64,000 nucleotides of DNA from a virus. The notes under the pieces are model-generated. The model made no database searches and was not told where the DNA came from. It saw nothing but the letters and a program-made list of their open reading frames with translations. This document shows, in pieces, positions 19,942-52,144 of the stretch. Position numbers and translations under genes: made by a program. The DNA is taken from positions 47,692 to 111,691 of the IMG/VR virus record IMGVR_UViG_3300049729_000226; one strand, written 5' to 3'. Each line of letters begins with the position of its first letter. The first letter of the stretch is position 1.

Positions 19942-20868
19942 ATGAACGTCTTCACCGTTTATAAAACCGTCAATCTGATCAATCATCGCTATTATCAAGG
20001 AGTCCACGAAACTTCTAATCCCAACGACAGCTATCTAGGTTCCGGCATCGTTCTCACAAGAGCCGTAGCCAAGTATGGTGCCAGCAACTTCTCCAAAGAA
20101 ATCTTATTCGTATACAACACAGCAGAAGAAGCCTTCTCCAAAGAGGTCGAACTTTGCGCTATTTCCAAAAATGATCCTCTTTGCTACAATCTACATCCCG
20201 GTGGCAAAGGAGGTTTCAAGTTCATACTAGATCATCACCTGATGACTCCAGTACCCAAAGAATTCCTCACAGGTCGCAAGCCCGGTTCCAAGAATCTCAT
20301 TGTCCCTGTCACAATATTTCCTGAACCAGTTTGTAAGTACGGATGTGGACTAGGAGCCAGGTTTCTTCTTGGAGAGAAAGGCACTCCTTGCTGCTCTGAT
20401 CATTCTGGTAAGTGTGCCGGATATAAAGCCTCAAAGAAGTCCACCAAAGTGAAACGAATCTATAAACAAGAGTTGATCTGTTTCTACGGATGTGATAGGT
20501 CTGCCAGCTATCTTCTAGGAGTTAGTGAGAAACCTTGTTGTTCCAAATCCTTTTACGATTGTCCTGGTCACTGGAATAATAGACCGAGCATATCTCTTCC
20601 GGAAATGAGAGCAAAATCAGAGATTACTATGTTGAAGAGGTACGGAGTAGTTAATCCGTCATCGGATCCTGAACTTCTCGCTAAAAGAACAGCAACTAAT
20701 GTTAGACTCTATGGAGGAGCCAGCCCCACCTGTGATTCCACCGTTAATCAAAAGCGCATTCGTACCAACAAGAAACGCTTTGGTGGCAACGCTCCAGCCT
20801 GTTCTAAGGAAATCAGGGACAAGATGAATGCTACTCGGAGGAAATCCAAACTTCTCCCCTCTTCTTAG
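19942..20868 (+). CDS. GIY-YIG-like homing endonuclease with tandem zinc modules
   Basis: The ATG at 19942 (GAGG six bases upstream) is preferred to a GTG at 19900. The N-terminal ~90 residues follow the GIY-YIG plan but with variant signatures: VYKTVN...YYQGVH in place of GIY...YIG, then KYGASNFSKEIL and YNLHPGG. Two similar Cys modules follow (CKYGCGLGARFLLG...CC...C and CFYGCDRSASYLLG...CC...C), and the tail has two or more RYG/RFGG..P repeats like DNA-binding modules of phage endonucleases. It is free-standing between the tube gene and a small head gene. The mobile element probably cuts an allele lacking the insert near the tube gene. Confidence 0.75.
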   Translation: MNVFTVYKTVNLINHRYYQGVHETSNPNDSYLGSGIVLTRAVAKYGASNFSKEILFVYNTAEEAFSKEVELCAISKNDPLCYNLHPGGKGGFKFILDHHLMTPVPKEFLTGRKPGSKNLIVPVTIFPEPVCKYGCGLGARFLLGEKGTPCCSDHSGKCAGYKASKKSTKVKRIYKQELICFYGCDRSASYLLGVSEKPCCSKSFYDCPGHWNNRPSISLPEMRAKSEITMLKRYGVVNPSSDPELLAKRTATNVRLYGGASPTCDSTVNQKRIRTNKKRFGGNAPACSKEIRDKMNATRRKSKLLPSS

Positions 20869-20875
20869 AGGCAAT

Positions 20876-21292
20876 ATGATGTATAGTCGTCTTCTCCAGC
20901 CTAAGACTGCAGTCTTCTACGCTTCCCCTGAAGGAGAAACTGACGATCCATTCTATGGACCTATTCCCAGAGGGGTGGGCGGTGCAGATCTTGACGGTAT
21001 TCCGGACTCTCCGATAAACAACAAAACTCCTGAATATGCTGAGGAGTCTCGCGGGTACAAGAACCCTCTGGCTGAGAAGGGAACTGAGAACAAGGATGAG
21101 GATGCCAACTTGGTGGAAGGAATTCCTCCCGGTTTGATTGTGGCAGGAGTGGATATCCACGAGTCTCCGACGAAGCTCCCGCCGCGCAATGATCTACGCA
21201 GACACCTCGACAAAGACGCTCTAGAAGAAGATGAAGAGCCTGAGATGAGGCATCTGATCTCATGTTTAGTAGTTGCTGAGAAGGAAATCTGA
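20876..21292 (+). CDS. Small acidic head-region protein, unknown
   Basis: 138 residues from the ATG at 20876 (AGAGG upstream). The open frame extends back to 20828 inside the endonuclease, but that start has no good ribosome site. The protein is rich in Asp, Glu and Pro (for example DKDALEEDEEPEM) and has no recognised domain. It sits between two homing endonuclease genes in the head module, so a head-assembly or connector role is possible but not supported by motif. Confidence 0.55.
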   Translation: MMYSRLLQPKTAVFYASPEGETDDPFYGPIPRGVGGADLDGIPDSPINNKTPEYAEESRGYKNPLAEKGTENKDEDANLVEGIPPGLIVAGVDIHESPTKLPPRNDLRRHLDKDALEEDEEPEMRHLISCLVVAEKEI

Positions 21293-21318
21293 CTAAGAGA
21301 CTCTCTATAGGAAGCACA

Positions 21319-22308
21319 ATGACGAAACTGCCTTTTGGACACAAAATCTCGCAGGCTAATCCAACATGGGATGAAGTGTGCCTTGAGATGATTCTGGAGA
21401 AGTACCCGGACTGCGACCAGAAAGCAGTGGAAAACTATCTGAAATTTGTAGCGGATGGAAAACAAGTAAATGGAAAATTAGAAGGTCATCATACCTTGAT
21501 GAGAGCTGATTTTCCTCAGTATATAGACACACCTGTTAACATCGTTAAGCTGACAGCACGCAATCACTTTGTAGCTCACTACTTGTTAGCAAAGGCGGTT
21601 CCATCATCTTCCAGTATTCAAATCACTTTTTATCTCATGGCCAACATGAAAAGGGCTATGTATCTAAAATTGCAAGAAGTTTATAAGATGGCAGATGTAT
21701 ACGAAGCCTCTAAACTTCACATACCTTCGACAAAGGGGTTCACTCCAGTTTATAACCCAGATACTAAAATGGTTGTACTCATGTCTAAAACAGATCCTGT
21801 AGTGGTTTCAGGACAGTTTAGACATCACACAACAGGAACTACTTCAGTGAGAGACAAGCAGAGGAACTGTTTTCGTGTTCCCAAAGACGACTCTAGGATA
21901 ATTTCCGGAGAATTACAACCAATCAACAAAGGAAGAAAAGTTCGTATGAATACAGTAACGGGAGAAACTGCTTCTATGATTGCTGGAGATGTCAGGCTAG
22001 AAGATCCCAACTGGGTTCATCCCTCTACAGGAAAAGTAGCTGTAGTTGATTCAGAAGGAAATACTTTTTCTGTCTCAAAAAATGATTCTCGTTTTCTTTC
22101 AGGTGAATTACGTGGTGTAATGTCAGCTGCCTCTGAGGATACTAGAAAAAGAATCGGAAATGCTCAGTTAGGTAGACATCCTTCTCTGGAATTGAGAAAA
22201 TTGTGGAGTAAGCGACGTAAAGGACGGGTTGTTTCACAGAAGACAAGAGACAAAATCAGTGCCTCTCATTTTCTTATGCATCAGAAAAGGAGAGAAAATG
22301 TCATTTAA
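21319..22308 (+). CDS. HNH homing endonuclease
   Basis: 329 residues. The HNH core is visible around residues 55-95: GHHTLMRADFPQY followed by NIVKLTARNHFVAHYLL, the same layout as the proteins at 27895 and 51449. Downstream lie two copies of a short module (FRVPKDDSRIISGEL and FSVSKNDSRFLSGEL) that probably read DNA sequence. The C-terminus has the NUMOD3-like pattern SEDTRKRIGNAQLG and SQKTRDKISASH. It overlaps the start of the protease-like gene by 11 bases, a typical free-standing insertion. Ribosome site TAGGAAG. Confidence 0.85.
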   Translation: MTKLPFGHKISQANPTWDEVCLEMILEKYPDCDQKAVENYLKFVADGKQVNGKLEGHHTLMRADFPQYIDTPVNIVKLTARNHFVAHYLLAKAVPSSSSIQITFYLMANMKRAMYLKLQEVYKMADVYEASKLHIPSTKGFTPVYNPDTKMVVLMSKTDPVVVSGQFRHHTTGTTSVRDKQRNCFRVPKDDSRIISGELQPINKGRKVRMNTVTGETASMIAGDVRLEDPNWVHPSTGKVAVVDSEGNTFSVSKNDSRFLSGELRGVMSAASEDTRKRIGNAQLGRHPSLELRKLWSKRRKGRVVSQKTRDKISASHFLMHQKRRENVI

Positions 22309-23173
22309 GAAGCAGGCTCAGGCAGTACTAGCCAGCCCACTTGTCAGTCTTAATGATTGGCATAAGATGTATGGAAATAACGCTTTTGGAGTTAAGACTG
22401 CCTCATTGAAGAAAGTTGCGGAGTCATCTCAGTACCTTCTATCTCATTGCACAATTATGGCATCAGTAATGGTAGAGGCAGAACCTTATGACTACCTAAT
22501 TAAGCCTGAGACGAGCCATTTGGCTAATAATAATCAGGACGCCTGGAGTAATGAAGTACTCAAAATGAGTCACAAATCTTTCATTGGTGCATTCAATTTT
22601 CTTGAACACTTCCAAAATTCTAAGCATGCCAAGGGACATATTCTAGACGCTGTCCTTCGTAAAGTATCGATTGCTTCTCCGGATATTTGGGTCTACTTTT
22701 GTGATATTTTGGTAGCAACAGATATGAAACATGAATCACTTGTAGGAGATATCCGTTCGGGTAAAACTAAGTATATGTCGATGGGTTGCGTCGCAGATGA
22801 AGTTACATGCTCCTTTTGTGGAACTAGAGTCACTGATGCCAACACCTATTGTCAGCATCTCAATTTTCAGAAAGGCATGTTCATGCCTGATGACGACGGT
22901 GTTCCTCGGATCATAGTGGAATTGTGCGGACGGCCTTCGCTTCCAGGTGGTGGAGTTCATTTTATCGAGGCTTCATGGGTTGAGACCCCTGCCTTTCCTG
23001 GAGCGGAACTTCGTGGGATTATATCTGACGAGAACGGGAACGATACCTGGACAGGACCTAAGACTAAGTTTACATATAGTACCACCGCTGGAATTAAGAA
23101 AGCTGCCTCTAGTCCAAGAGAAGAGTTGTCCAGAGCTTCCATTGCCGATTTTAGACGGAGGTTTGGTTCATGA
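22298..23173 (+). CDS. Putative prohead protease / head maturation protein
   Basis: 291 residues from the ATG at 22298 (GGAGAG upstream); the longer frame back to 22229 runs through the endonuclease and is not used. Residues ~95-240 carry a pattern I associate with T4 gp21-like prohead core proteases: an SHKSFIGAF segment, DILVATDMKHESLVGDI, then a zinc-knuckle-like block YMSMGCVADEVTCSFCG with later CQHL and ELCGRPSLPGG. Location before the scaffold-like gene and capsid gene supports cleavage of head core proteins. The catalytic dyad cannot be assigned with certainty. Confidence 0.6.
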   Translation: MSFKKQAQAVLASPLVSLNDWHKMYGNNAFGVKTASLKKVAESSQYLLSHCTIMASVMVEAEPYDYLIKPETSHLANNNQDAWSNEVLKMSHKSFIGAFNFLEHFQNSKHAKGHILDAVLRKVSIASPDIWVYFCDILVATDMKHESLVGDIRSGKTKYMSMGCVADEVTCSFCGTRVTDANTYCQHLNFQKGMFMPDDDGVPRIIVELCGRPSLPGGGVHFIEASWVETPAFPGAELRGIISDENGNDTWTGPKTKFTYSTTAGIKKAASSPREELSRASIADFRRRFGS

Positions 23174-23243
23174 AGATTACCTGTTGGTATAAGAAACGAC
23201 TTCAAAACACCCTAGTAGTGAGTGGTTCACTGGAGACTGCGCA

Positions 23244-25305: not shown

Positions 25306-25338
25306 TCGGCTCAGATTAACCTCTGAGCCGATTCTATT
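25306..25338. terminator. Bidirectional terminator hairpin between scaffold and endonuclease genes
   Basis: A perfect 9-bp stem (TCGGCTCAG at 25306-25314 with CTGAGCCGA at 25323-25331) and an 8-base loop, followed by TTCTATTT. It lies between convergent gene ends: 29 bases after the scaffold stop and immediately beyond the stop of the minus-strand endonuclease at 25334. It could end transcription from both sides. Confidence 0.75.
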
Positions 25339-25960
25339 TGAAGTGAAGACAGTATCTTCTATGTCCTCCATAAACTCCCTTGGTGACTTGAATGAACTTC
25401 GCTCCACATTTAGGACAGGTGTAATCATGCAATTTAGTATTCTCAGTTAAATTCACTCTTGTAGCAACGGAAGATTGAGACTGTTTTCTGGGGATATTCC
25501 AACTGTTAGATATTTTGTCCTTGTGATCCTTGGTTTTTGGTACTCCAGTAAGTTTATCAGATAATGCCTTGGCTGCTTTTCGATGAATTTCTTTAGTTCC
25601 TTCAGGATCGTCAATCCACTGCTGTTTCTTGAATTGACTCAGCTTTCTTTTGGTCTCTTCGTTGGCTCGACATCCGTGACCACCGAGAGTGAGATTGTAC
25701 CCGATCTTGGGATCAGATGAACGAAGAAGAATGATCCAGAGAGTTTCAAATTCGTTCAACTTGTCTATACTGGAGGTTTCACAAAGAAGTTCCATAGTGA
25801 AACTTGACTCTCCATATTTTCTCATTGCTTTGTACAAATAGGAATTATCTCCATATTTAGCATTTTTGACATGCTGATTCCATCGTTCTCTCAGTGAAAG
25901 AACAGTTTGGCCAACATAGAATTTTCCGTTAACGAGATTGGTGATTAAGTAGACGCACAT
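25334..25960 (-). CDS. GIY-YIG homing endonuclease
   Basis: 208 residues on the minus strand, opposite to the head genes around it. The nuclease domain is near-complete at residues 1-90: CVYLITNLVNGKFYVGQT (GIY..YVG), LRERWNQHV, KAMRKYGESSF, GYNLTLGG. A NUMOD3-like pattern (NEETKRKLSQFK and KTKDHKDKISNSW) and a final CPKCG...CLHF zinc finger follow. It lies between the scaffold-like and decoration-like genes and shares the bidirectional terminator. Being inverted, it must have its own promoter. No clear ribosome site precedes its ATG. Confidence 0.85.
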   Translation of the reverse strand: MCVYLITNLVNGKFYVGQTVLSLRERWNQHVKNAKYGDNSYLYKAMRKYGESSFTMELLCETSSIDKLNEFETLWIILLRSSDPKIGYNLTLGGHGCRANEETKRKLSQFKKQQWIDDPEGTKEIHRKAAKALSDKLTGVPKTKDHKDKISNSWNIPRKQSQSSVATRVNLTENTKLHDYTCPKCGAKFIQVTKGVYGGHRRYCLHFK

Positions 25961-26136
25961 GATTACTATGGCCTAAGTAGTCGATTGATACGGGCATTAT
26001 CGCTAATTGCCTAAAAAACTGGATTACAACCCCCATAAGTGTAGGATGGCTGCTGGTCATCTATAGATCTTGTCTTAGCTTGACTGATCTGGATGGCTGA
26101 CAAATCAAAACCAGACTATGTAGCTGAGATTCAACC

Positions 26137-26619
26137 ATGTTGAAACTTGACTATTACGGTCAGAACGATGGAACCACGGTTCCAAACGTCACCCTCACAG
26201 GTGACCCCGGTACTGACCAGCTCACGTTGACCAATGCAGGTTACTTGGGCGGAAAGATCATGGCGGTCGTAGGCACTTACTCCGACGGCTCTGCTCTTAT
26301 CGCTCCCTGCGATGGCAACACCATGTCGCCCTATGGGACACTCATCAATGGCCCCGGTGAATTTGCCGGCGCTATCGGTCCCTCTGGCTCCAAGAAGGCC
26401 CCTGTCGTCCGCTCCATGTGGAAGGGTTCGGTCGACAATCAGGCTTATGACACAACCAAGCAGTACGTGGTCGGCACTCCGCTGTACGCGGGTACTGGCG
26501 GCGCGGCTGGACTCTACACCAATGCAACACCTGGTGGAGTTGCCAAGATCGTTGGACTTGTCACAGCAGTCCCAACTCAGCAGAACTCTTTCCTGCTGGG
26601 CGTCGGATCACTGATCTAA
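26137..26619 (+). CDS. Capsid decoration-like protein
   Basis: 160 residues, Gly/Thr/Ser-rich, with repeated short strands (TLTGDPGTDQLTLTNAG, GSLINGPGEFAGAIGPSGS). This is the simple beta sandwich look of head decoration proteins, often encoded just before the major capsid protein as here (41 bases apart). A likely role is stabilising the mature shell. The upstream 176-base gap to the inverted endonuclease holds CTATAG at 26061 and a TTGACT, possible promoter parts. Confidence is limited because the fold is inferred only from composition and order. Confidence 0.55.
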   Translation: MLKLDYYGQNDGTTVPNVTLTGDPGTDQLTLTNAGYLGGKIMAVVGTYSDGSALIAPCDGNTMSPYGTLINGPGEFAGAIGPSGSKKAPVVRSMWKGSVDNQAYDTTKQYVVGTPLYAGTGGAAGLYTNATPGGVAKIVGLVTAVPTQQNSFLLGVGSLI

Positions 26620-26659: not shown

Positions 26660-27793
26660 ATGGCTACTCTTTCGAGAACTCAGCAGCAGACAGCGCAGTT
26701 GGGTCAGTTGCTGAAAACCGCAGGCGGACGTCAGAAGCTCGCAGCTTCTCTCGGACCCTCCCTGAGACGCCGCCGTGACTATATGTCGATTGCCCGCAAG
26801 GCACTCATGGTGGAAACCCTTCCGGATGGCGCACTTCCCATCTACGACAAGGAATTTGACGCGACTGGTAAGTCGTTCGTCGAGGCCTTTGTGGTTGGTG
26901 AAGAAGGCGGCGACATTGTCCGGGTAACCAAGCCCATTCGTGTGACGGTTCCGACGTTCGAAATCGTTGCCAATCCCATGATCCCGATCACCCAGATCAA
27001 GGAACGTCGCTTCGACCTCGTTGCCCGTTCTCTCAATCTGGCCAAGGCAGAAGTGGGCGCGACTGAGGACGGCTATGTGTTTGGCCTGTTCGACGCCGTC
27101 GCAACCGCAGCCACAGCGGCGACCCTCGTTGCCGGCACTGGCTCGACGGACTACGTTTTCAACGAAGACCTCAACATCTTCGTGGCGACGTCCGGCATCA
27201 CCACTCCTCCCGTTGCTTGGGTCAGCGGCGGACCCTTTGCTGTTGGTGCTTACACGACGGGTTCCGATGGAAACCTCTATGTTTGCATCAAGGCAGCAAC
27301 CACACAGAACCCGGTAGTGGGCGGCGGCGGTTATGCAGCTGGCTACTGGCTGTTTGTCGGCACCGACACCTTCGCTGTCAAGGGAATTGACGTGGACTCG
27401 ATGGCTGATGCATTTGGCCAGGTTCAGCGCCATGACCTTTCGGTGGCCTATGTGTTCTTCAACCCGCGCGACTATGTCGACCTGTTGAAGTGGACCGATG
27501 CGAACATCGACCGTGAGACGCAGCGCAAGCTGTTGAAGACGGGCGTGATGGGATACCTCTGGGGCGCCACTCTGCTCCAGTCTCGTAAGATCAACTATGG
27601 TGAAGTGTACGTTCTGGCCGATGCCGAGTTCTTGGGCGTCATCCCCGAGCGTATTCCGCTCACGGTCATGTCAGCCGACCGTCCGGACCTCCGCCAGATC
27701 GGCTTCAGCATCTTCGAGAATTTGGGCTTCCTTGTTTTCAACCCGAGCGGAGTCCAGCGCATCAACGTAGTACGTGGCACCGGCAACGTTTAA
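26660..27793 (+). CDS. Major capsid protein, HK97-type, with an inserted domain
   Basis: 377 residues with GGAGAAATTCAA before the ATG. Features are those of HK97-fold capsid proteins: a basic N-arm, a strand-rich E-loop region (residues ~60-95), VTVPTFEIVANP, a spine helix (RRFDLVARSLNLAK), and a C-terminal P/A-domain run with FNPRDYVDLLKW, ETQRKLLKTGVMGYLWGATL and FENLGFLVFNPSGVQRINVV. Residues ~186-234 form an extra piece resembling a carbohydrate-binding (CBM5/12-like) module. A strong hairpin terminator follows. The decoration-like gene precedes it. Confidence 0.85.
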   Translation: MATLSRTQQQTAQLGQLLKTAGGRQKLAASLGPSLRRRRDYMSIARKALMVETLPDGALPIYDKEFDATGKSFVEAFVVGEEGGDIVRVTKPIRVTVPTFEIVANPMIPITQIKERRFDLVARSLNLAKAEVGATEDGYVFGLFDAVATAATAATLVAGTGSTDYVFNEDLNIFVATSGITTPPVAWVSGGPFAVGAYTTGSDGNLYVCIKAATTQNPVVGGGGYAAGYWLFVGTDTFAVKGIDVDSMADAFGQVQRHDLSVAYVFFNPRDYVDLLKWTDANIDRETQRKLLKTGVMGYLWGATLLQSRKINYGEVYVLADAEFLGVIPERIPLTVMSADRPDLRQIGFSIFENLGFLVFNPSGVQRINVVRGTGNV

Positions 27794-27808
27794 CCATCAC
27801 CTAACCAT

Positions 27809-27838
27809 CTAGAGCCTCTCTTAATCGGGAGGCTCTAG
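27809..27838 (+). terminator. Terminator hairpin after the major capsid gene
   Basis: Perfect 10-bp stem CTAGAGCCTC (27809-27818) with GAGGCTCTAG (27829-27838) and a 10-base loop, starting 15 bases after the capsid stop. No long U tract follows, so it may act as a terminator or as an mRNA-stabilising 3' end. Confidence 0.7.
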
Positions 27839-27894
27839 CTGTCTTCAGAACAATAATTTCCCCTAATTGGCAAAACCTATAGTATCATGAATTC

Positions 27895-29028
27895 ATGAAC
27901 AGCGTTATCAAACAAAGCCTCACTTCCATTCCTCACGATCCTGTCTGGGTCGACACCTACCTAGAATTCATTACCAACACTCCTACTCCCACAGAATCCT
28001 TCGACAAGCACCACATCCTGATGGAGAGCATCTTCCCTGACTTCCGCAGTCTCACCAAATTCCCCTGGAACATCAAGCGGCTTTCTTATGCTGATCATCT
28101 CATCGCTCACTATCTACTTCGCAAGGCCATTCCTTGTGGAGCAACCAACGGAGCATTCCGCCTCATGGTGGGCCTCAGATTCGGCGAGCTACGTGCCAGC
28201 GGTTACGATCTTGAACTTCTTTCCGACATCGCAGCAGAATTTGAACTCATCCGTCGCATGAACGATTTTTCCATCAAGGGTTACATCAGAATCTATCGCG
28301 AAGACGACGTCACTGTCTGCAAACCTAGCCAACTCTCTAACTATGAAGCTGAAGGTTGGAGCTTAGTCTACCCCGAACAACAGTGGATTTACAAAGATGA
28401 CGAAGAACGTCGTGTTCTGAAAACTGATCTTCCTCCTCTCCTCCTCGATGGTTGGGAATGCGGAAGATGCTATCGTGCTACTGATTCCACTAAACAGAAA
28501 CTTTCCGATTGGAGTTTAGCCAAGCATAAACAAAGAACTGCAGAACCTAATGGTTATTCCTTCATACCTAAAGGAGATCAGCACCATCGTAGAGTCCTAG
28601 GCATTTCGGAAGAAACCAAGCAAAAGATCCGTGAAACTCTCATGGGGCGTACTCTAGCACCAGAGCATGCCGATAAGGTTCGTGTTGCTACAATTGGCAA
28701 ATCCTGGACCTGGTCCTTGGAATCCAGAGCAGCCAAGTCCCAATCCATGACAGGAGAGGGCAACAATCGCTTTGGCAAGCCTGGTTACTGGAAAGACAAG
28801 ACCAGACCTCAGTCAACTCGTGACAAAATGTCCGCTTCTCAATCCGCTCGCACTGATAATGCCTTCTGGAAAGGTAAGGTCGGTCCACACAAAGACCATC
28901 TTCAATCTCAGAAATCTCGTGACCAGATAGCTCTCAAACTCACAGGTAGAATAGCTTCTGAAGAAACTCGTCGTAAGATGCGTGAGGCCCACGCTCTAAG
29001 AAAGAAACTATCAAATCCAGTAAAGTGA
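27895..29028 (+). CDS. HNH homing endonuclease
   Basis: 377 residues. The HNH core is at residues ~40-80 (DKHHILMESIFPDF, NIKRLSYADHLIAHYLL), matching the proteins at 21319 and 51449. The C-terminal third carries NUMOD3-like repeats: SEETKQKIRETLMG, RPQSTRDKMSASQ, SEETRRKMREAH. It is free-standing between the capsid gene and a SAP/HeH-like gene. The start has no Shine-Dalgarno; it sits in the palindrome TCATGAATTCATGA (27885-27898), where an ATG at 27887 opens a four-codon ORF whose stop overlaps this start. CTATAG at 27877 may be part of a promoter. Confidence 0.85.
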   Translation: MNSVIKQSLTSIPHDPVWVDTYLEFITNTPTPTESFDKHHILMESIFPDFRSLTKFPWNIKRLSYADHLIAHYLLRKAIPCGATNGAFRLMVGLRFGELRASGYDLELLSDIAAEFELIRRMNDFSIKGYIRIYREDDVTVCKPSQLSNYEAEGWSLVYPEQQWIYKDDEERRVLKTDLPPLLLDGWECGRCYRATDSTKQKLSDWSLAKHKQRTAEPNGYSFIPKGDQHHRRVLGISEETKQKIRETLMGRTLAPEHADKVRVATIGKSWTWSLESRAAKSQSMTGEGNNRFGKPGYWKDKTRPQSTRDKMSASQSARTDNAFWKGKVGPHKDHLQSQKSRDQIALKLTGRIASEETRRKMREAHALRKKLSNPVK

Positions 29029-29060
29029 GCAGTATTACTATCTCGAGGAGCACAAAATCA

Positions 29061-32488: not shown

Positions 32489-32502
32489 AGTATTAGAGGC
32501 CC

Positions 32503-33521: not shown

Positions 33522-34256
33522 ATGGACACTGTCTTGCTTACTCGTCTGGCCACTATAAGAGGTCGGCACAGTCATCTTGGAACTCAGATTCTCTTCGAGG
33601 ACAGGAACATTGCTCGACTCCATGGGAAGATTGAGCAACTTGAGAAGGACAAGATCGAACTGGTCAAGGTTCAGACTCTCATTGACCGAGCCATAACGAC
33701 AATCAGCGCAAATGGGATCGGGAAGATCGAGCAGGTTGTGACTGCTGGACTTCATCAAGTCTTCGGAAACAGAGGGAATCTGCGTTTCGTAGTTGAGAAG
33801 AAAGAGGGCAAACGCGGCAACATCTACAAGCTCAAGGTACAGAAGACTCGCAAAGATGGTCTCGTGATCCAAGGAGATGTCCTCAAGTCCTTCGGCGGCG
33901 GCCTGGCAAACGTCATCAGCTTTCTTCTCCGAGTCATGATGATCAAGAAGTTCCGCTTAACCCCATTTATAGTTCTGGATGAAAGTTTCTCAAACGTCAG
34001 TGCAAACTACTTGCCACAGGTGAGTGCTATGCTAAAATCTCTCACGTCAAAACATGGATTTACAGTACTGCTTGTTACTCATCAGGCAAGAGTAGCTGAA
34101 GAGGCAGATGCTATTTACCAAGCAGTTCCCAGTGATGACGAGAATGGTTCACCTCAACTTGTGAAGACAGAATTTTCGGAGGATCTTTTTGCTAATTTAC
34201 CTTCTTCAGAATCTAGCCAACAAGAAATGTTACGTGGGTCAATGGAGGGGGAATAA
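33522..34256 (+). CDS. SMC/Rad50-type ATPase, C-terminal half only
   Basis: The first ~60 residues are coiled-coil-like (KIEQLEKDKIELVK). The ABC signature-type segment SFGGGLANVISFLL, Walker B FIVLDES with D-loop SNVSANY, and an H-loop LLVTHQ follow. A Walker A motif is missing and no N-terminal half is encoded adjacently, so it is either a fragment of a gp46/Rad50-like recombination ATPase or one half of a split protein. The start ATG at 33522 lacks a strong ribosome site; a TTG at 33474, inside the clamp gene, is an alternative. Its last 68 bases overlap an endonuclease gene. Confidence 0.6.
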   Translation: MDTVLLTRLATIRGRHSHLGTQILFEDRNIARLHGKIEQLEKDKIELVKVQTLIDRAITTISANGIGKIEQVVTAGLHQVFGNRGNLRFVVEKKEGKRGNIYKLKVQKTRKDGLVIQGDVLKSFGGGLANVISFLLRVMMIKKFRLTPFIVLDESFSNVSANYLPQVSAMLKSLTSKHGFTVLLVTHQARVAEEADAIYQAVPSDDENGSPQLVKTEFSEDLFANLPSSESSQQEMLRGSMEGE

Positions 34257-39952: not shown

Positions 39953-40258
39953 ATGACCGCCAAAGAAGAAGTGATTGAAATCCTCAACAGGATGAGATTC
40001 AACAGTGAGGACTTTACTCCCGAGACCATTGCTGATGCTTTGGAAGCAGAAAATCTCATCTCAATGAACGCTCATCTCGAGGCTCTCCGTCGCATCAGTG
40101 AGGCCCTGGGCCATCCGTATAGAGGCGACACCACCAAGTCCTGTCTCGACCTGGCAGACCTTGCTGTCATCAAGATTGGAATTGGTCTTGGGAAAGAAGA
40201 GGATCTAAAGAACAATCCGTTCAGGCAGCACTGGATTGAAATGGGAATGAAGCCGTGA
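39953..40258 (+). CDS. Hypothetical small protein, unknown
   Basis: 101 residues, helical, beginning 6 bases after the previous stop and sharing GTGA with the phosphoesterase start. It contains IADALEAENLISMNAHLEALRRI. No known domain, membrane segment or signal. Probably co-translated with the next gene. Confidence 0.5.
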   Translation: MTAKEEVIEILNRMRFNSEDFTPETIADALEAENLISMNAHLEALRRISEALGHPYRGDTTKSCLDLADLAVIKIGIGLGKEEDLKNNPFRQHWIEMGMKP

Positions 40259-40974
40259 GAGTTACCTGCATATCCGACACTCATGGATTCCAAGGCCACA
40301 TGAGGTTGCCAGATGGAGATCTACTCATTCATGCTGGCGATTTTTCTATGAATGGAAATCCCATCCAGGTCCTCAATTTCCTAGCCTGGTTTGAAGAGGT
40401 GTGTTCGAAGTTTACCTATGGCGGTATTCTGATTGCGGGTAACCACGACCTCACACTCGATCCAAATCGTTGCTCAAAGGAAAACTTTGTTCTCATCAGT
40501 CATCTGGTTCGACAGGGCAAACACTTCAAATACCTCGAAAACTCTCATGTGATCCTACCCAATGGCATCACAGTGTGGGGAAGCCCTTACACACCCTGGT
40601 TTCTGGGACACATCTGGGCTTTCAGTCAGACTGAGGACAAGCTCCAGTTGAACTGGTGGGGAATTCCTCAGGAGGTTGACATCCTCGTGACTCATGGCCC
40701 GGTGTGGGGCATTCTAGACCAGATCATCCCCGGGAGCGGTGAACATCTGGGCAGTCCTTCACTCAGAAATCTCATCGACAGAGTCTTTCATGACATGAAA
40801 CTTCATGTTGGAGGGCACATCCACGGAGGGTACGGGATTCACCAGGATCCTCGAGATTCAAGTGGTCGAATTTTTGTAAATCCGTCTTTCGTAGACGAGC
40901 GGTATCATCCAGTGAACGATCCTATTTCTGTGGAGATCAAGGAGAGAACAAATGGCTTCATCCAGAGGATATGA
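40255..40974 (+). CDS. Calcineurin-like metallophosphoesterase
   Basis: 239 residues from GTG at 40255. All metal-binding motifs of the family are present in order: ISDTHG at ~6-11, HAGDF at ~26-30, AGNHDL near 62-67, VTHGPVWG near 145, and GGHIHGGYG near 185. This matches small phosphoesterases of the MPPED type, expected to hydrolyse phosphoester bonds with two metal ions. In a phage it may act on nucleotides, cyclic messengers or modified phosphates. The substrate is unknown. Confidence 0.85.
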   Translation: MRVTCISDTHGFQGHMRLPDGDLLIHAGDFSMNGNPIQVLNFLAWFEEVCSKFTYGGILIAGNHDLTLDPNRCSKENFVLISHLVRQGKHFKYLENSHVILPNGITVWGSPYTPWFLGHIWAFSQTEDKLQLNWWGIPQEVDILVTHGPVWGILDQIIPGSGEHLGSPSLRNLIDRVFHDMKLHVGGHIHGGYGIHQDPRDSSGRIFVNPSFVDERYHPVNDPISVEIKERTNGFIQRI

Positions 40975-42751: not shown

Positions 42752-42983
42752 CATGAGCATGGGATCTAAGAGACCAAAGCAAATGAATTGCCGATATGAA
42801 CCGGCATATCCTGATCATGCTACGGTGTGCTTTGCTGAACATGGAGGATCATCAATGGTGGTTCATTCTATTTCACAACGATGTTCAGTAGAATACCCAC
42901 ACGAATTCACAAATTGTGGCGAATTTGATCCTCCTAGAGTCTTAGCTGCCATTTTGGGAGTAGTTTCACCTCTTCTGTTCTGA
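42741..42983 (+). CDS. Short Cys-containing frame, possibly cut by an endonuclease insertion
   Basis: 80 residues from the ATG at 42741, overlapping the previous stop. Cys and His residues (MNCRYEP, TVCFAEHGG, QRCSVEY, TNCGEFD) suggest a small metal-binding protein. The last 50 bases overlap the 3' end of the inverted PD-(D/E)XK endonuclease, so the natural C-terminus may have been replaced when that element inserted. No strong ribosome site. It could also be a chance frame. Confidence 0.4.
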   Translation: MMPDMSMGSKRPKQMNCRYEPAYPDHATVCFAEHGGSSMVVHSISQRCSVEYPHEFTNCGEFDPPRVLAAILGVVSPLLF

Positions 42984-43863
42984 CCAATTCTTTCAATCTG
43001 TCATTGCTGACTTTTTGTGGGTTATCCTCTTCTGTTAGAACCTTGAATTTGTCTCCTAAAACAGCTTGGGCGGCTGCAAATTTGGCTTTGTTTCCGGCAG
43101 TATAGGTCAAGGCTTCGGGTTTTATCTCAATGAACTCTCCTGTGATTGGAAGGAAGAAATCGGCAAAGAAGGTCTTTGTACCAGTTGAGGTCTGATATGA
43201 GATTCCGTAGCATTTCTTCTCAGCAGTCTCCCAGACCACTCCTTCCTTATCAAATTTCAACATGTAGGAAAGCTCAAGGAGACTTCGAAAGTAGTGACCC
43301 TTATACCAACCACTCCACCCACAACCAGAGCCAATAGGAGAAGGCTTTCCGAACATAGGGTTGTTGGAACCGGAAGAATCCAAACTTTGCTTTTCTTTGA
43401 ATTTTGACAAACGAAGATCAGCTTCTTCTTTACCAAATTTGGAGAGCCACACAGAGTAAAACGAACGACCACTCATTGGGTTATCACTGGTCATGAGATC
43501 ACTGTGAGCCTTCTTGCGAGTTGGATTCCAAGGACGTCCTATCTTTGAGTTGACGTCTACTCTGAGACGACCAGCTTCATCTTCTCCGTACTTCTCTCTC
43601 CAAAGAGAATCCACTGATTTACCAAACATGAGGTTCTTATTCCCAGTACACGAACGATGAAATTGAGCAGCTTTTTCTAAAGCAGTATTGGAAAGACGAT
43701 GACCTTTTCTTTTGTCGCTTACGATCTTTCGAGCCTCCGTAGTCCATCGACGACTAGAGGCACATTTGCGACATATTCTGGATTCATTCATCGCCATTTG
43801 TTGTTCTCGCTGATTTTTGTGAATGACTTCACGACCACATTGAGGACAAATTCTTGGATACAT
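42934..43863 (-). CDS. PD-(D/E)XK homing endonuclease with NUMOD3 repeats
   Basis: 309 residues on the minus strand. The N-terminus holds an MYPRICPQCG...CRKC zinc motif. The middle has NUMOD3-like repeats (NKNLMFGKSVDSLWREKYGEDEAG, DNPMSGRSFYSVWLSKFGKEEAD, NNPMFGK). The C-terminal ~130 residues carry the restriction-endonuclease pattern: GHYFRSLLEL, then FADFFLPITGEFIEIKP with the Asp...Glu-x-Lys triad. This is a free-standing homing endonuclease of the EDxHD/Vsr-like or related PD-(D/E)XK class. It lies between replication genes, opposite to them, leaving 56 bases to the clamp-loader start. Confidence 0.8.
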   Translation of the reverse strand: MYPRICPQCGREVIHKNQREQQMAMNESRICRKCASSRRWTTEARKIVSDKRKGHRLSNTALEKAAQFHRSCTGNKNLMFGKSVDSLWREKYGEDEAGRLRVDVNSKIGRPWNPTRKKAHSDLMTSDNPMSGRSFYSVWLSKFGKEEADLRLSKFKEKQSLDSSGSNNPMFGKPSPIGSGCGWSGWYKGHYFRSLLELSYMLKFDKEGVVWETAEKKCYGISYQTSTGTKTFFADFFLPITGEFIEIKPEALTYTAGNKAKFAAAQAVLGDKFKVLTEEDNPQKVSNDRLKELVRTEEVKLLPKWQLRL

Positions 43864-45059: not shown

Positions 45060-45077
45060 TCGAATATTTTCTTCAAA

Positions 45078-46927: not shown

Positions 46928-47532
46928 TGGAAGTCAAGAGAGAAATTGTCCACAGGCTCACGTTTGTCAATGACTGCGGTTGCCAGTCCATACGAGAGTA
47001 CAAGGATCAGATGTGCAAGGAGCCTATGGGTGGCAGCAAGTTCACAGCTTGTGATGTCCACAAGGCCAAATCTCAGGACGTCCAGGAAATCCTGGAAATG
47101 ATGACCAATCAGGCTCTGGATAGAGAGGCTAGTAGCACCCCGGCTCCTCCTGTTCAGCATGTCTCCGGACCGGATGCTCGGTTTCCGTTATTGGGGAATG
47201 TCGTGGTCACAGAAGGCTCGAGCACTGTGGTCGCTACGGGCGGCGGAAAAGCAACGACCATGCATATGCCAAACATGCCCAAGAGGAATCCTGAAGACAT
47301 TCTCAATCCTCGGACAGTTAGCCGCACAGTTGTAACCACATCCAGAAAATCCTCCAAGACAGCGGCTCCGGCTGCTCTCGATATGCATGATGAGGACGCT
47401 GCACTCTTTGCCGGCGCAGGATCGGATGCTCAGATGGATGAGGTAGAAGAGCACGAAGGTCTTACGGCTCTTCTGGACAATGGTGGCTTGGGTTCACTTG
47501 AAGATGATCCCGATCGCTCTACTTCTTCTTAG
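46927..47532 (+). CDS. Hypothetical protein with N-terminal Cys cluster, unknown
   Basis: 201 residues from ATG 46927, which overlaps the previous stop (TGATG). The first ~45 residues hold C-x-C-x(10)-C and a later TACDVH that could form a metal site. The rest is low-complexity, acidic and Ser/Thr-rich at the end. It converges with the minus-strand gene at 47519, sharing 14 bases of 3' end. No function. Confidence 0.5.
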   Translation: MEVKREIVHRLTFVNDCGCQSIREYKDQMCKEPMGGSKFTACDVHKAKSQDVQEILEMMTNQALDREASSTPAPPVQHVSGPDARFPLLGNVVVTEGSSTVVATGGGKATTMHMPNMPKRNPEDILNPRTVSRTVVTTSRKSSKTAAPAALDMHDEDAALFAGAGSDAQMDEVEEHEGLTALLDNGGLGSLEDDPDRSTSS

Positions 47533-47836
47533 CAGCTTCTCGTCTTAGAGAATTCCAAATCCAGGTTCTCCAAGCGGATTCGGTATCTAGAATCTGACTT
47601 TTCGAAGTCGGTTGAGGAGCATCGTCACACCAGGCGAACTCCATTCCCTTTGTTGTGTGAGACACCATCACGAGGGTTCCCCTGGGAGGATCTTTCACAG
47701 GTAGACCACCATGCTTTAGATCTTGAAAGAGGAGGCGAGCTACATCCATCCAAGTGGGATCTTCTCCTAACCTGTTATGCCTGATTTTAATGGGAATGAT
47801 GGAGATTTCGTCTTGAATTGGAGAACAAGTAGCCAT
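47519..47836 (-). CDS. Hypothetical protein, unknown
   Basis: 105 residues, ATG preceded by GAGGG on the minus strand. Helical middle (DPTWMDVARLLFQDLKHGG), with TLVMVSHTTKGMEFAWC and a basic tail. No family known. It is the last gene of the minus-strand block and overlaps the end of the plus-strand gene before it. Confidence 0.55.
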   Translation of the reverse strand: MATCSPIQDEISIIPIKIRHNRLGEDPTWMDVARLLFQDLKHGGLPVKDPPRGTLVMVSHTTKGMEFAWCDDAPQPTSKSQILDTESAWRTWIWNSLRREAAKKK

Positions 47837-47880
47837 ATTTATCCCTCAGAACTGGATACTCAGATTCAGCTTCCTTTCTA

Positions 47881-48438
47881 CTATCGTCTCGCGATGAAAA
47901 TCTTGTGACCCGCAGGTTTCAGCGGCTTGTTTTCCGGCCCCTTGATGTATGCTTCGATGAAGATCTTCTTGAAAGATCCATCCTTGTACGGCTGATTCCG
48001 CCAGTGTCCACTGACTTCCCATTGCCATTGCCAGTCTACCGGGTGCAGTTCGTCACTCTTGGGACGATCCTCTTCCAATCGGCGAAGGCTGATCACTCTG
48101 ACATCAGGAGAGATCTTCTCGTTGGCACGCTCGTGACGGCGGCGGGTGGGACGGTCGACGGGAACGGAAGTGTGATGAGAGAGTCGCTGGGCCATGAGAT
48201 ACTGAGCAGCATACACCCAGCGCATCTCATGCTTCATGTCAGATTCGCGACCCTTCAAGTATGCTCCCATTCCAAAGGATTTGGACTCGAAGTCGTGGAT
48301 CCTGTCGATCAGTTTGTCGCCTTGGGAGAGAGTGAAGTGTGACCAGCAGCCGAACCCGGTCTTTCCGGGCATATAGCTCTCGAAATCTTGGTAGCAGAGG
48401 AAGTACATCTTGGTCTCAGAGACTTTGAACCATCCCAA
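47881..48438 (-). CDS. C-terminal intact frame of the broken gene
   Basis: 185 residues from ATG 48438. It contains GWFKVSETKMYFLCYQ and the terminal WQWEVSGHWRNQPYKDG with KGPENKPLKPAGHKIF, a pattern familiar from actinophage proteins. Taken alone it may be translated from this ATG. Its N-terminus is in frame with an open stretch reaching back to about 48505. Confidence 0.5.
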   Translation of the reverse strand: MGWFKVSETKMYFLCYQDFESYMPGKTGFGCWSHFTLSQGDKLIDRIHDFESKSFGMGAYLKGRESDMKHEMRWVYAAQYLMAQRLSHHTSVPVDRPTRRRHERANEKISPDVRVISLRRLEEDRPKSDELHPVDWQWQWEVSGHWRNQPYKDGSFKKIFIEAYIKGPENKPLKPAGHKIFIARR

Positions 48439-48794
48439 GGCAGAGACCCTGAGACCAGTCCCTCCAATTTCGCTCTTATAACGGGATCCTCCAGTCCAGG
48501 ATTTTGCAACTCCGGATTGGGAACTTCGAAGGGAACTTCAATCCACATCCATCCTTGGGGAGAATGGACCCAGGACATCTCGAACTCGATGTCGTCTGGG
48601 ATGGTGGATCGTGCGTTCTCTACCAGAGAGCAGAAGTTCTTGTTCATGAAGAAGGTGTCGCCGGTTTCCAATGCGTGTTGGTATGCGGGAAGAGCCTCTA
48701 GATATGAGGATGCAGCTTTTGGCCATCCCGATTGGCAATCCTGGTGATGTGATTCCAGGCCGGTCCTCCCTCTATTCTGGCCCATTTGAGCCAA
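48309..48794 (-). CDS. Middle frame of the broken gene
   Basis: This frame encodes AYQHALETGDTFFMNKNF and LVENARSTIPDDIEF before it slips out of phase; its last ~40 residues are a shadow of the downstream frame. Neither end has a good start or natural C-terminus, so it is best read as part of the 47881-48835 gene. Confidence 0.35.
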   Translation of the reverse strand: MAQMGQNRGRTGLESHHQDCQSGWPKAASSYLEALPAYQHALETGDTFFMNKNFCSLVENARSTIPDDIEFEMSWVHSPQGWMWIEVPFEVPNPELQNPGLEDPVIRAKLEGLVSGSLPWDGSKSLRPRCTSSATKISRAICPERPGSAAGHTSLSPKATN

Positions 48795-48835
48795 CGGAAG
48801 CGGACTTCGATCGCATTGATGTACTCGCTCTTCAT
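48698..48835 (-). CDS. N-terminal frame of the broken gene
   Basis: A 45-residue frame starting at the ATG shared with the previous stop (ATGA). It reads EVRFRWLKWARIEGGPAWNHITRIANRDG and stops after HPHI. The conserved-looking start and homopolymer break suggest it is the true N-terminus of the larger gene rather than a separate protein. Confidence 0.4.
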   Translation of the reverse strand: MKSEYINAIEVRFRWLKWARIEGGPAWNHITRIANRDGQKLHPHI

Positions 48836-49017
48836 CTTACTCTCACAATTTCTCCAGTTGGTCTCTTCTCAAGGAACTTGACACAGACGTCCCAAAATAG
48901 AGCATCGGGGTGATTCAGGTAGGCACCTGCCAGCAAGCCAAACAACAGAGCCAAAGTGGTCTGCTCGTTGGTTATCACCGCAGCGGCGATGTAGCGGCAG
49001 TCGCTAGAATCTCGCAC
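48832..49017 (-). CDS. Small conserved-looking phage protein, unknown
   Basis: 61 residues from GTG 49017, with GGAGG eight bases upstream and its G shared with the previous stop. Alternative TTG at 49023 is too near the ribosome site. Sequence RYIAAAVITNEQTTLALLFGLLAG suggests a soluble alpha/beta fold, although its middle is hydrophobic. No function known. It overlaps the next start by 4 bases. Confidence 0.55.
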   Translation of the reverse strand: MRDSSDCRYIAAAVITNEQTTLALLFGLLAGAYLNHPDALFWDVCVKFLEKRPTGEIVRVR

Positions 49018-49178
49018 TACCAATTTCCTCCGGCAGTATCAGCTTCTCCAAACGTGCAGGGACCGCACATTCCGGTGGCAGGAACAACTGGAGTCTCGCC
49101 ACAGACTTCGCACTTTCTGGTCCAGTCTGGCGTTGTGTCAGTTTCGCGCGGCTTCTTCGTGGGTTTCTTCTTGCTCAT
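49017..49178 (-). CDS. Tiny zinc-ribbon-like protein
   Basis: 53 residues too short for most ORF calls. A basic N-terminus (MSKKKPTKKPRE) is followed by CEVCGETPVVPATGMCGPCTFGEAD, two CxxC pairs in a compact rubredoxin-like plan seen in small phage proteins. The ATG overlaps the previous stop (ATGA) and the stop overlaps the next start, so it is part of a translationally coupled run. Function unknown. Confidence 0.6.
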   Translation of the reverse strand: MSKKKPTKKPRETDTTPDWTRKCEVCGETPVVPATGMCGPCTFGEADTAGGNW

Positions 49179-49471
49179 TTGTTATCCAAAATTCCGGAAT
49201 CGTCGATCAGGGTTTCCATCTGGTCAACTTCCTGCTTCATCTTGCGAAAGCTGGGAGAGAAGATGCAATGGATCCAATCTGGCGAATTCTGAACCAGCCA
49301 GGTCCAGGTCTTGATGTGAAGTGGTGCAGGCTTGATGCCTCGAGTGAGCAGCAACGCTGCATCACCGACTACATTGAGGGGTGCTTTGAGCTCGTACAAT
49401 CTCTGAAGCCGGTCAAGTCTTGATCGAAAGACGTGGTCTGGCACCCTGAGTTCGTTCATAAACCTTTGCAT
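49175..49471 (-). CDS. Hypothetical protein, unknown
   Basis: 98 residues from ATG 49471, chosen over the upstream ATG at 49507 because GAGAGG lies seven bases before it. Sequence includes RLDRLQRLYELKAPLNVVGDAALLLTRG, helical, and a WTWLVQ segment. No known family. The 129 bases upstream to 49601 hold no gene I can see. Confidence 0.5.
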   Translation of the reverse strand: MQRFMNELRVPDHVFRSRLDRLQRLYELKAPLNVVGDAALLLTRGIKPAPLHIKTWTWLVQNSPDWIHCIFSPSFRKMKQEVDQMETLIDDSGILDNK

Positions 49472-49600
49472 AAATAGACCTCTCCATGTCTCCCCTCCAT
49501 TCCTCATCTACGCGAGGTCTGATCAAAATCGGGTAATCAGATGCTATCCCAAAACCGCCAGAAGATGATAGCCATTCGTTGGCGAAGTCTGTGAATTTTG

Positions 49601-49999
49601 CTAAACCTCATTTGATCCTTCTTTCTTCAACCATGAGAAGCCTTGGGTTTCTTCGTTCCAGTGACAACTGGAATCCGTTTCAGCTAACTCTCTGAGGTGA
49701 TTGGCCAAGTGAGGATTGTTCACGCTCTCCACATAGACCCCTTGATATGTCTTGCCACAGCTCTTCTTGAAGAGTTCGAAAGTCTGTTTGAAGAGGCCGC
49801 GCCCACGCATTTCCTTGATCACTGTGATATTGGCAAGGTCGATGAAGAGGTACAGGTGGCGATTCACCATGTGATGACCCTTGCGAACATAGACAGAAAG
49901 CTGTCCAGTCGTCAGCCACTCATTCTTCGCATGAGGAGAGGCAAGGAACTTCTCCAACAGAGTTCGGAGCGAACGATCCAGCTTGATGGGCTCAACCAT
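49601..49999 (-). CDS. GNAT-like N-acetyltransferase fold protein (small)
   Basis: 132 residues. The central block LYLFIDLANITVIKEMRGRGLFKQTFELFKK has the GNAT motif A look (a strand, then RGRG/A-type pyrophosphate loop, then a helix), followed by GVYVESVNNPHLANHLREL, which suits motif B. The protein is short for a full GNAT and lacks an obvious catalytic acid, so it may bind acetyl-CoA with a small substrate or be degenerate. It is the first gene on this strand; the divergent gap to 50074 may hold promoters for both directions. Confidence 0.5.
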   Translation of the reverse strand: MVEPIKLDRSLRTLLEKFLASPHAKNEWLTTGQLSVYVRKGHHMVNRHLYLFIDLANITVIKEMRGRGLFKQTFELFKKSCGKTYQGVYVESVNNPHLANHLRELAETDSSCHWNEETQGFSWLKKEGSNEV

Positions 50000-50796: not shown

Positions 50797-50852
50797 CATC
50801 AGTGATCTAGTAAAGCGATTTAACGATTGATGAACATCGGAAGGAGGCTGTT

Positions 50853-51227
50853 ATGGCCCCTATCATCACTCTAAAGAACTGGTTCCGGAAGGATTTGCGT
50901 TATGCAAACTGGGACCGCGACGTGGAGATTCTAAAGGACACTGAAACTGAGTGCTCCATTAGAGTTTACACGGATACACACAGCTATCGCATCGGAGCCA
51001 TGGTTCGTGAAGACGGAACTGGCTATCTCGGATGTGAGGCTTCTACTCGGAAGCCCAGGGCTGGAGAAGACCACACTCGTGGCAACGATCTTCCCGATGG
51101 TCTGTTCACTCGTGCCAATTGGCAAAGTATTCTTGGTTCGATTGTGGGATATGAGCTCGTGAAGATTCATCGTGAAGTACCCAAATCACCCGGTCTAGTG
51201 TCCGAGGAATCTGTCCAGAAAGTCTGA
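50853..51227 (+). CDS. Hypothetical protein, unknown
   Basis: 124 residues with GGAAGGAGG nine bases before the ATG, one of the strongest ribosome sites here. Beta-rich middle (CSIRVYTDTHSYRIGAMV) and WQSILGSIVGYELVKIH. No known domain. It converges with a small minus-strand gene, sharing 33 bases of sequence. Confidence 0.5.
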   Translation: MAPIITLKNWFRKDLRYANWDRDVEILKDTETECSIRVYTDTHSYRIGAMVREDGTGYLGCEASTRKPRAGEDHTRGNDLPDGLFTRANWQSILGSIVGYELVKIHREVPKSPGLVSEESVQKV

Positions 51228-51416
51228 CGCATCATAGAGTCCCAGCCGATTGGCGGCGACCTTGAGGATCACAAGCTGCTCCTTGGTGGAGTATTGCGCT
51301 TGCGGCTGCTTGGGGATCGACTCGGCAGCAACCATGCGAGGATCGCGATTCGGTAAAGGGAAAGAACAAAGGCTTGCAGGATAAGGCGTGGAAGTATCGT
51401 TACTCTTATCACTCAT
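51195..51416 (-). CDS. Small hypothetical protein, unknown
   Basis: 73 residues from ATG 51416, preferred over a longer frame back to 51464. It ends with STKEQLVILKVAANRLGLYDASDFLDRF, a helical pattern that looks like a conserved small phage protein. No function. It is just downstream of an HNH endonuclease on the same strand. Confidence 0.5.
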   Translation of the reverse strand: MSDKSNDTSTPYPASLCSFPLPNRDPRMVAAESIPKQPQAQYSTKEQLVILKVAANRLGLYDASDFLDRFLGH

Positions 51417-51448
51417 GCTTTTCTCTACTGATGTGAGTTGCCAAACAG

Positions 51449-52144
51449 CTAACCACCAGTACAAAAAGGACAGATGGGACTTGTAAGGTTGCGATTAACG
51501 TGCCATCGAAGATGTGCCAACTTCTGTATCTGACCTGTTGCTGACGCTAGTTTTCCAGATTTGGAAGCGGCATATCGCTGATGTTCCGTCGTTCTTAGTG
51601 AGGAGAGTTGTCCATTTTGCACTGCTTTTTGACCGGATTTCTTTCCGTTTTTACGAGCTCTACCACTACGAACGTGATCTTTTCCAGCGGCTATTCCTGC
51701 CTTAACCTGATGCTCGTGAGTTCTTAGCCTTGCCAGGAGTCCAGATTCCACAGCGGCCTTCCCCAGCAATCTAGCATGTTCGATCTGACGTTTTCTTCCA
51801 TGCTCATACATTAGAGAGTAGTTTTCCAGTTCTTGCTCAGTTAGGTGGGAAACCCAAACTTTGCGACTAAAATTACTCATCATAAATAGAACTCTTTGAA
51901 AAGGAACATATTTTGGAGCACAGCTTGATAGAAAGTAATGAGCCTTGAAATGATTGGCCGGTGCCAGGCATATCCTGTTGTTTGGGTCATTTCTGTACTG
52001 AGGAAATTCATTCTTAGGCAGAATGTGATGAAACTCTCCAGTGTCGGCTGTACAGAGGGATTCTAAAAAAGTGAAATACGATGAAAAATCACTCTCTGAT
52101 AACCGATTAGACAAAGACTTTCGTAGATAATCAAGTATTATCAC
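51449..52144 (-). CDS. HNH homing endonuclease with tandem DNA-binding repeats
   Basis: The frame is open from ATG 52201, but that would overlap the divergent SLOG-like gene. GTG at 52144 gives 231 residues and places the HNH core at the same distance as in the sister proteins. The core reads GEFHHILPKNEFPQY, then NRICLAPANHFKAHYFL. About 90 residues of three degenerate repeats (SGLLARLRTHEHQ, NGQLSSLRTTEHQ and similar) follow, then HVNR...CPFC. No Shine-Dalgarno is visible for either start. It is inserted between the small gene at 51195 and the accessory cluster. Confidence 0.75.
   Translation of the reverse strand: MIILDYLRKSLSNRLSESDFSSYFTFLESLCTADTGEFHHILPKNEFPQYRNDPNNRICLAPANHFKAHYFLSSCAPKYVPFQRVLFMMSNFSRKVWVSHLTEQELENYSLMYEHGRKRQIEHARLLGKAAVESGLLARLRTHEHQVKAGIAAGKDHVRSGRARKNGKKSGQKAVQNGQLSSLRTTEHQRYAASKSGKLASATGQIQKLAHLRWHVNRNLTSPICPFCTGG

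Follow-up and report, generated by a model that had tools for sequence, protein, structure and literature searches.

Why does some 32 kb of one phage genome carry nine free-standing homing endonuclease genes (HEGs) of three classes, and what persists at a site where one nuclease class gives way to another? The region lies in a 64,000-nucleotide stretch of viral DNA (hereafter the window), which is positions 47,692-111,691 of the IMG/VR virus record IMGVR_UViG_3300049729_000226 of 111,691 bases. The explanation that fits the comparisons best, with a probability that we put at roughly three in four, is free-standing homing at high density combined with a DNA-address module that appears to outlive the nuclease attached to it.

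All nine open reading frames (ORFs) that an earlier, sequence-only reading had assigned to GIY-YIG, HNH and PD-(D/E)XK nucleases (H1 to H9, Table 1) proved to be present and to bear features of these classes by Pfam, PHROGs and residue alignment. They fill 7,332 of 32,203 nt, or 22.8% of the 32.2 kb. The T4 genome is about 169 kb long. According to PMC2988022, T4 has 15 HEGs, 12 of them free-standing, which take up 11% of its coding potential, and it is called an oddity among T-even phages. The five GIY-YIG genes (H1, H3, H5, H6 and H8) are all supported by PHROGs. PF01541 leaves H1 and H6 unmatched even at E up to 1, and both keep the invariant Y, YxG, E and N columns of the GIY-YIG alignment, in which the catalytic R is not aligned in H1. 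The predicted structure of H3 matches the catalytic domain of I-TevI with a TMt of 0.80. H2, H4 and H9, unmatched by the Pfam HNH family, match phrog_655 and phrog_12434 (E 6e-27 to 1e-7), and the H-N-H residues are invariant in 7/7 aligned HNH proteins. H7 had been called PD-(D/E)XK/NUMOD3. The first half of this name is borne out by a D...E-x-K motif (D235, E246, K248) invariant across four homologues, H7 and three others, whereas the NUMOD3 match stays below the Pfam cut-off; the best Foldseek match of H7 is TnsA (E 0.02, from a low-confidence model with a pLDDT of 60.6). H7 also has a NUMOD-like linker (NPMFGK...W..KFGKEEAD) that is found again in other viruses, in GIY-YIG-like and HNH-like proteins (L132, L133 and L134). 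A core-motif search found no convincing intron in the window, as had been stated, and Rfam at gathering thresholds returned three tRNAs only; the same thresholds also miss the introns later found in relatives.

For comparison, 80 loci were kept from a capsid scan; they are metagenome contigs and include several near-duplicates. Against contigs 90-99% identical to the window and present in separate assemblies (L002/L003 and L005/L049), the HEGs show clean presence/absence junctions. H1 and H2 are missing from L005 and L049, and H4 and H6 also from L005, which extends further, so the relatives do not all carry the same genes at the same positions. At H1, the interval from 19856 to 20948 of the window corresponds to locus positions 4515 to 4729 in the H1-less allele, and L002 has an H1 with an out-of-frame internal deletion of 452 bp. 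L002 and L003, about 99% identical to the window, share H4 and H5 with it, and L002 also H2. The first 39 nt of the H2 ORF equal L005:5100-5138; H2 uses the leader and start codon of the protease gene, its fusion partner being the first 13 codons of the uninterrupted protease allele. In place of the GIY-YIG gene H3, a 313-aa HNH gene is found in L002, L003, L005 and L049. H5 has its TTG start and a Shine-Dalgarno-like GGAGG inside the 3' end of g23; its site holds a 234-aa HNH gene on the minus strand in L005 and is empty in L117, L120 and L121. The 2.1-kb insert with H6 contains other small ORFs and ends exactly at the g30 start codon (37270), with the H6 ORF extending into g30 in another reading frame. 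In L003 all that is seen of H6 before the contig ends is a 3' remnant; the site is empty in L117 and L120 and occupied by an unclassified 333-aa ORF in L121. Decaying nuclease copies are thus seen at sites of the window other than that of H3. Conversely, L005 carries a GIY-YIG gene that is missing from the window, lying between g9 and the tube gene. Its start falls where the tube gene would otherwise start, behind the leader of that gene, and the tube gene itself has a new leader in front of it.

Further along the window the comparison relies on more distant loci. Distant relatives retain the gene order g33-g40-g42, preceded by g23-g25-g30 where seen. The g40/g42 junction, which holds H8, is empty in L116, L117, L120 and L121, and elsewhere contains an opposite-strand GIY-YIG gene (L118) or other ORFs (L119). 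In the same four loci, none of the nine HEGs finds a match upstream of g40, no nuclease hidden Markov model (HMM) having been run there. With the clamp-loader, exonuclease, NusG-like and g53 proteins as queries, scans returned a single near relative for 42-52 kb, the 187 kb IMG/VR contig 3300049728_000159, which is identical to the window across the compared stretches; H7 to H9 therefore rest on distant relatives or on none, and no relative carrying both flanks of H9 was found. The nearest isolate by capsid protein is Tunturi_5, a jumbo phage whose host is the acidobacterium Tunturiibacter (73% query coverage, 75.7% identity). Neither Tunturi_5 nor L007 has a nuclease at sites S0-S4, and the H1-H4 junctions of Tunturi_5 are empty. 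PF01541 has no match across its 308,711 bases, and an HNH alignment search, which had no positive control, gave none either.

Because the junctions are clean against contigs of 90-99% identity, these comparisons support the view that these genes are mobile and recent. They also speak, indirectly, for competition for sites, since H3 (GIY-YIG versus HNH) and H5 hold different nuclease classes in near-identical contigs; the density from which the sequence-only reading had argued for active competition is by itself no proof of it.

To score how widely the sites are filled, capsid clusters were formed from the window and 79 loci at 95% nucleotide identity, 31 in all. A nuclease gene of the GIY-YIG or HNH class occurs at g9/g10 in 3/11 scored clusters, at g10/g14 in 3/20, at g14/g15 in 1/25, at g15/g17 in 12/27, at g17/g18 in 0/31 and at g18/g20 in 4/21, all of the last being HNH genes. 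Endonuclease VII was not among the HMMs, so the L041 cluster counts as empty at g15/g17.

This g15/g17 site (S3) lies between the scaffold and capsid genes, and the nucleases there share a C-terminal zinc-finger module of about 60 residues. In H3 the finger reads C-x2-C...H-x3-C and is beta-beta-alpha in the predicted model. An HMM of the finger, built from GIY-YIG members alone, was applied to 21,143 ORFs of the relatives' loci and found 29 at E<1e-10 (22 GIY-YIG, 4 HNH and 3 endonuclease VII-like), the next best lying at 0.0095. A scan of 2.9 million viral contigs of IMG/VR gave 57 pattern matches, 43 of which were confirmed: 31 GIY-YIG, 8 HNH and 4 endonuclease VII-like loci. In all 43 the module gene lies antisense and adjoins a homologue of g17 (42 loci), of g15 (41 loci) or of both; the few missing neighbours are accounted for by contig ends. 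None of 83 pattern matches in 84,980 prokaryote genomes was confirmed, and isolate phages and plasmids gave no match. The endonuclease VII assignment comes from PHROGs (E 1e-27) and a CxxC-DHDH-CxxC pattern. In BLASTP, proteins of different families resemble each other in and around the module, and proteins of one family at different sites mainly in the catalytic domain; H3 matches the protein of L147 with 63% identity over 57 aa (E 8e-22), that of L175 with E 8e-15 and that of L005 with E 3e-10. The HNH protein of L175 carries the module twice, and its catalytic domain is nearer to H9 (E 5e-24) than to the L005 one, suggesting two separate captures of the module by HNH domains. The open-access literature that we searched held no recognised description of such a site-dedicated module layout. 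An extension of the address rule to H5 was tried and rejected, as the similarity of H5 to the HNH gene of L005 is weak and lies in the NUMOD3 part (E 5e-4).

The gene next to the module, g17, is interrupted at its 5' end in L002/3/5/49, L051-55, L172-175 and L008-L017, where no start codon directly precedes the conserved YYGQND. In ten representatives a segment, cut as 213-284 bp, lies between an upstream exon 1 and YYGQND (the cut segments of L175 and of the L008 type still contain a few exon 2 bases). Two families were distinguished, one formed by L005, L051 and L175 and the other by L008-L017. In the first, the helices follow the order P3/P7/P8; 90.5% of cells are paired and the three sequences show 7 two-sided changes, a result reached by 1/500 shuffles. 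In the second, L008 matches RF00028 with E 1.3e-6 in a 351-base search (32.1 bits, below the gathering score of 50), and 19/65 predicted pairs are changed on both sides among four sequences. Over 85 loci in 25 clusters, with short contigs dropped, interrupted g17 with a nuclease makes up 6 cluster-states, intact g17 with a nuclease 10, interrupted g17 without a nuclease 0 and intact g17 without one 12 (Fisher p 0.021); with short contigs retained the numbers are 6/10/0/16 (p 0.009). Not included in this tally are 30 loci that lack the anchor motif and 7 whose upstream sequence is too short. Eleven of the 30 were inspected; all are intact, with a nuclease present in some and absent in others. 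The relatives with an interrupted g17 thus appear to have the layout of collaborative homing, i.e. a free-standing HEG adjoining a gene with an ORF-less group I-type intron, but the window's own S3 does not, its g17 having no intron.

From these patterns we infer the following course. Each nuclease would bind and cut the HEG-less allele of the neighbouring conserved gene, and repair would copy the HEG in together with flanking DNA. As several insertions lie at a start codon or in the first codons, the element would take over the leader of the downstream gene and supply a new one. The element would later turn over by arrival, by replacement with another class or by decay through deletion. At S3, the zinc-finger module would read one address, probably the 5' end of g17, and catalytic domains of the GIY-YIG, HNH and endonuclease VII-like families would all have been joined to it. 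Where a small ORF-less group I-type intron occupies the 5' end of g17, as in some lineages, it would block self-cleavage. In its stricter form, which we regard as slightly better than an even bet, this is address-first homing: the heritable unit at S3 would be the DNA-reading module and not the nuclease, elements would compete by re-arming the address, and introns would land as a by-product or as protection. Captures of the module by GIY-YIG, HNH (probably twice) and endonuclease VII-like domains are, under this stricter form, what we would on balance expect.

Several observations weigh against homing with a lasting address, and some of them favour other explanations. The relatives are metagenome contigs, several of them near-duplicates. 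The protease gene g14 (22298-23225, plus strand) beside H2 is 68.7% identical to L005 over 22319-23110, with outer flanks of 98.5-98.8%, and the number of mismatches to L005 per 100 positions is 9.8 in the 100 bp nearest a junction and drops to 1.8-2.0 at distances above 800 bp. In a circular-shift test this gradient was reached in 69/5000 shifts without the protease tract and in 869/5000 with it, and with the tract kept it is not significant. Moreover, a tract of the sheath gene at 16,000-16,900 is just 62-88% identical to L005 and has no HEG nearby. Divergent tracts that exceed the inserts, or have none near, would be expected if plain homologous recombination between divergent phages moved blocks of genes and the nucleases were passengers at block edges, and the HEG islands reported for ICP1 and its relatives (PMC10448857) agree with this. 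We nevertheless consider passengers unlikely, as several junctions fall exactly at the edge of a nuclease insert, with 98-100% identity on the other side. Co-conversion of flanking DNA is likely at H2 and suggestive at the other sites. The part of the sheath gene just downstream of the divergent tract is 94-98% identical; the L005 contig starts at 15,946, which leaves the upstream flank unseen.

The shared tail at S3 might instead be an expression or structural module, such as an autorepressor that binds near the g17 leader. It does adjoin g17 in the loci found, and T4 intron endonucleases are described as doubling as transcriptional autorepressors (PMC2988022). However, the intron-like inserts at the 5' end of g17 are seen only in lineages with an adjacent nuclease, and we hold it improbable that expression alone explains the tail; the address and operator roles are not exclusive. 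That the nucleases are residents of the genome or domesticated genes, passed on together with the genes around them and serving, for instance, packaging or degradation of host DNA, is the least probable explanation, as the recurrence of a minus-strand GIY-YIG gene at S3 in 12/27 scored clusters across deep divergence, which fits long vertical inheritance, is outweighed by presence/absence among strains of 90-99% identity, class replacement, internal deletions and the vacant sites of Tunturi_5 and L007.

Homing with a lasting address has further difficulties of its own. The motif of the module scan was drawn from S3 members, and several of the loci are near-duplicates. The module is absent from the GIY-YIG genes that L008-L017 and L031/32/35/39 have at S3. 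HNH and endonuclease VII catalytic cores superpose as related (PMC6083498), so the module would be shared by two unrelated folds rather than three. The helices of the first intron family were written by hand from a single sequence, L005; one of its five measures, that of further pair types, is not above shuffles (384/500), RF00028 matches neither L005 nor L051 even at E up to 10, and a canonical in-frame 3' junction was not found in L005. Finally, the cluster-states are not fully independent, and since ten HEG-bearing ones, the window's included, have an uninterrupted g17, immunity by intron cannot be general.

Homing nucleases are known to exchange domains, and the gain of an existing target by a new nuclease is hard to observe. 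I-BasI, I-BmoI and I-HmuI, nucleases of different classes that share DNA-binding parts, are intron-encoded, pairwise cases and do not form a module dedicated to one site over dozens of loci. Dense free-standing HEGs beside essential genes are an already known class of phenomenon: the T4 seg and mob genes, of the GIY-YIG and HNH classes, lie among essential genes, and some of them overlap the ORF that precedes them (PMC2988022). In comparison with T4, the window is denser locally (nine in 32 kb), has a PD-(D/E)XK member, and offers near-identical empty or swapped alleles and one constant address module with three catalytic families. The HEGs of ICP1 are likewise dense at essential genes, variable in presence and subject to deletions, and exchange zinc-finger tails; the swaps described are among T5orf172 HEGs (PMC10448857), whereas here the tail of one locus bears GIY-YIG, HNH and endonuclease VII-like domains. 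F-CphI, at psbA of a cyanophage, is a free-standing nuclease of the DHHRN family with an endonuclease VII motif, and a group I intron in its target gene prevents self-cleavage (PMC6083498). The L041 protein resembles it in having DHDH flanked by CxxC pairs. Unlike the case of F-CphI as that source presents it, the collaborative layout here occurs with GIY-YIG and HNH nucleases, and the endonuclease VII-like members (L144-L147) have an uninterrupted g17. What is new in these soil jumbo phages is thus a site-dedicated module with three catalytic families, together with the landing of introns at the adjacent gene; this one site also has empty and intron-bearing alleles. Tunturi_5, which is cultured, lacks these nucleases and has a similar g17 5' end, makes the idea testable. 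If it is true, the modules would be a natural DNA-reading domain that works with different cutters.

Table 1. Nuclease genes and associated features of the window, followed by further homing-type genes of the record
Feature	Position	Strand	Description
H1	19900/19942 (ATG at 19942)-20868	+	SegE-type GIY-YIG HEG, DUF7487/Cys-rich tail; phrog_314 E 9e-28
H2	21319-22308	+	HNH HEG, fused in frame after protease codon 13
H3	25334-25960	-	GIY-YIG HEG with C-terminal zinc-finger module (putative address module); PF01541 E 2e-11
Putative address module of H3	25337-25528	-	Residues 145-208; common to HNH and endonuclease VII-like HEGs at S3
S3 segment, window allele	25342-26151		810 bp; 1364 bp in L002/L005, with HNH gene and intron-like segment
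g17	26137-26619	+	Intact in window; putative target of S3 nucleases
S4 insert	27796-29060		Capsid stop to exact start codon of g20 (29061); 91 bp in L005
H4	27895-29028	+	HNH + NUMOD3 HEG; Pfam NUMOD3 above cut-off
H5	34189-34815	+	GIY-YIG + NUMOD3 HEG; PF01541 E 4e-7
H6	36525-37349	+	GIY-YIG-like + NUMOD3 HEG; phrog_314 E 6e-11
H7	42934-43863	-	PD-(D/E)XK HEG, Cys-rich N-terminus; Pfam NUMOD3 match below cut-off
H8	45144 (ATG at 45171)-45746	+	GIY-YIG + NUMOD3 HEG; PF01541 E 7e-10
H9	51449-52201 (ATG at 52144)	-	HNH HEG
Vsr-like ORF	G000:4478-5296		phrog_559
HNH/endonuclease VII-like ORF	record 9100-9936
PD-(D/E)XK ORF	record 31949-32752		Alignable with H7
HNH + NUMOD3 intein	G000:C1:38308-42762 (= L127:10309-14763)	-	In a 1484-aa ribonucleotide reductase ORF

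About nine more homing-type genes lie outside the window, which brings the record to about 18 in 111.7 kb, against the 15 given for T4 (PMC2988022). Five additional GIY-YIG genes are among them, and the others are listed at the end of Table 1. The family phrog_559 has been tied to VSR nucleases (PMC11878797), and the intein-borne HEG sits about 5 kb upstream of the window.

The identities that the sequence-only reading had given to the neighbouring genes held up in part. Pfam supports the clamp loader (DNA_pol3_delta2, E 1e-22) and also a 5'-3' exonuclease (E 4e-31), but has no match for the protease, scaffold, capsid, primase-like and NusG-like genes, and the sole Pfam signal of the 'ATPase' g23 is a sub-threshold match to SMC_N. 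In Tunturi_5, the homologues of the sheath, protease and capsid proteins are annotated as tail sheath, head maturation protease and major head protein. Bacillus phage G is a more distant isolate match of the window capsid protein, and megablast of the region against isolate phages gave no match.

Some minor features of the window and its relatives were also recorded. Amid a mostly plus-strand region, 47519-49999 forms a minus-strand block; the stretch of 47.5-50.0 kb has no long plus-strand ORFs and reads better as minus-strand genes. L002 has an insertion of about 345 bp within g12 relative to the window (L002:3585-3931), with one 270-aa ORF remaining. At the L005 contig end (L005:20565-20986, compared with window 39998-40414) the order is swapped, 40220-40414 coming before 39998-40222, which is possibly a rearrangement or an assembly artefact. 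The window capsid gene (26660-27793) is about 200 bp longer, at about residues 146-242, than those of Tunturi_5 and shorter distant relatives, and the extra length is possibly an inserted surface domain.

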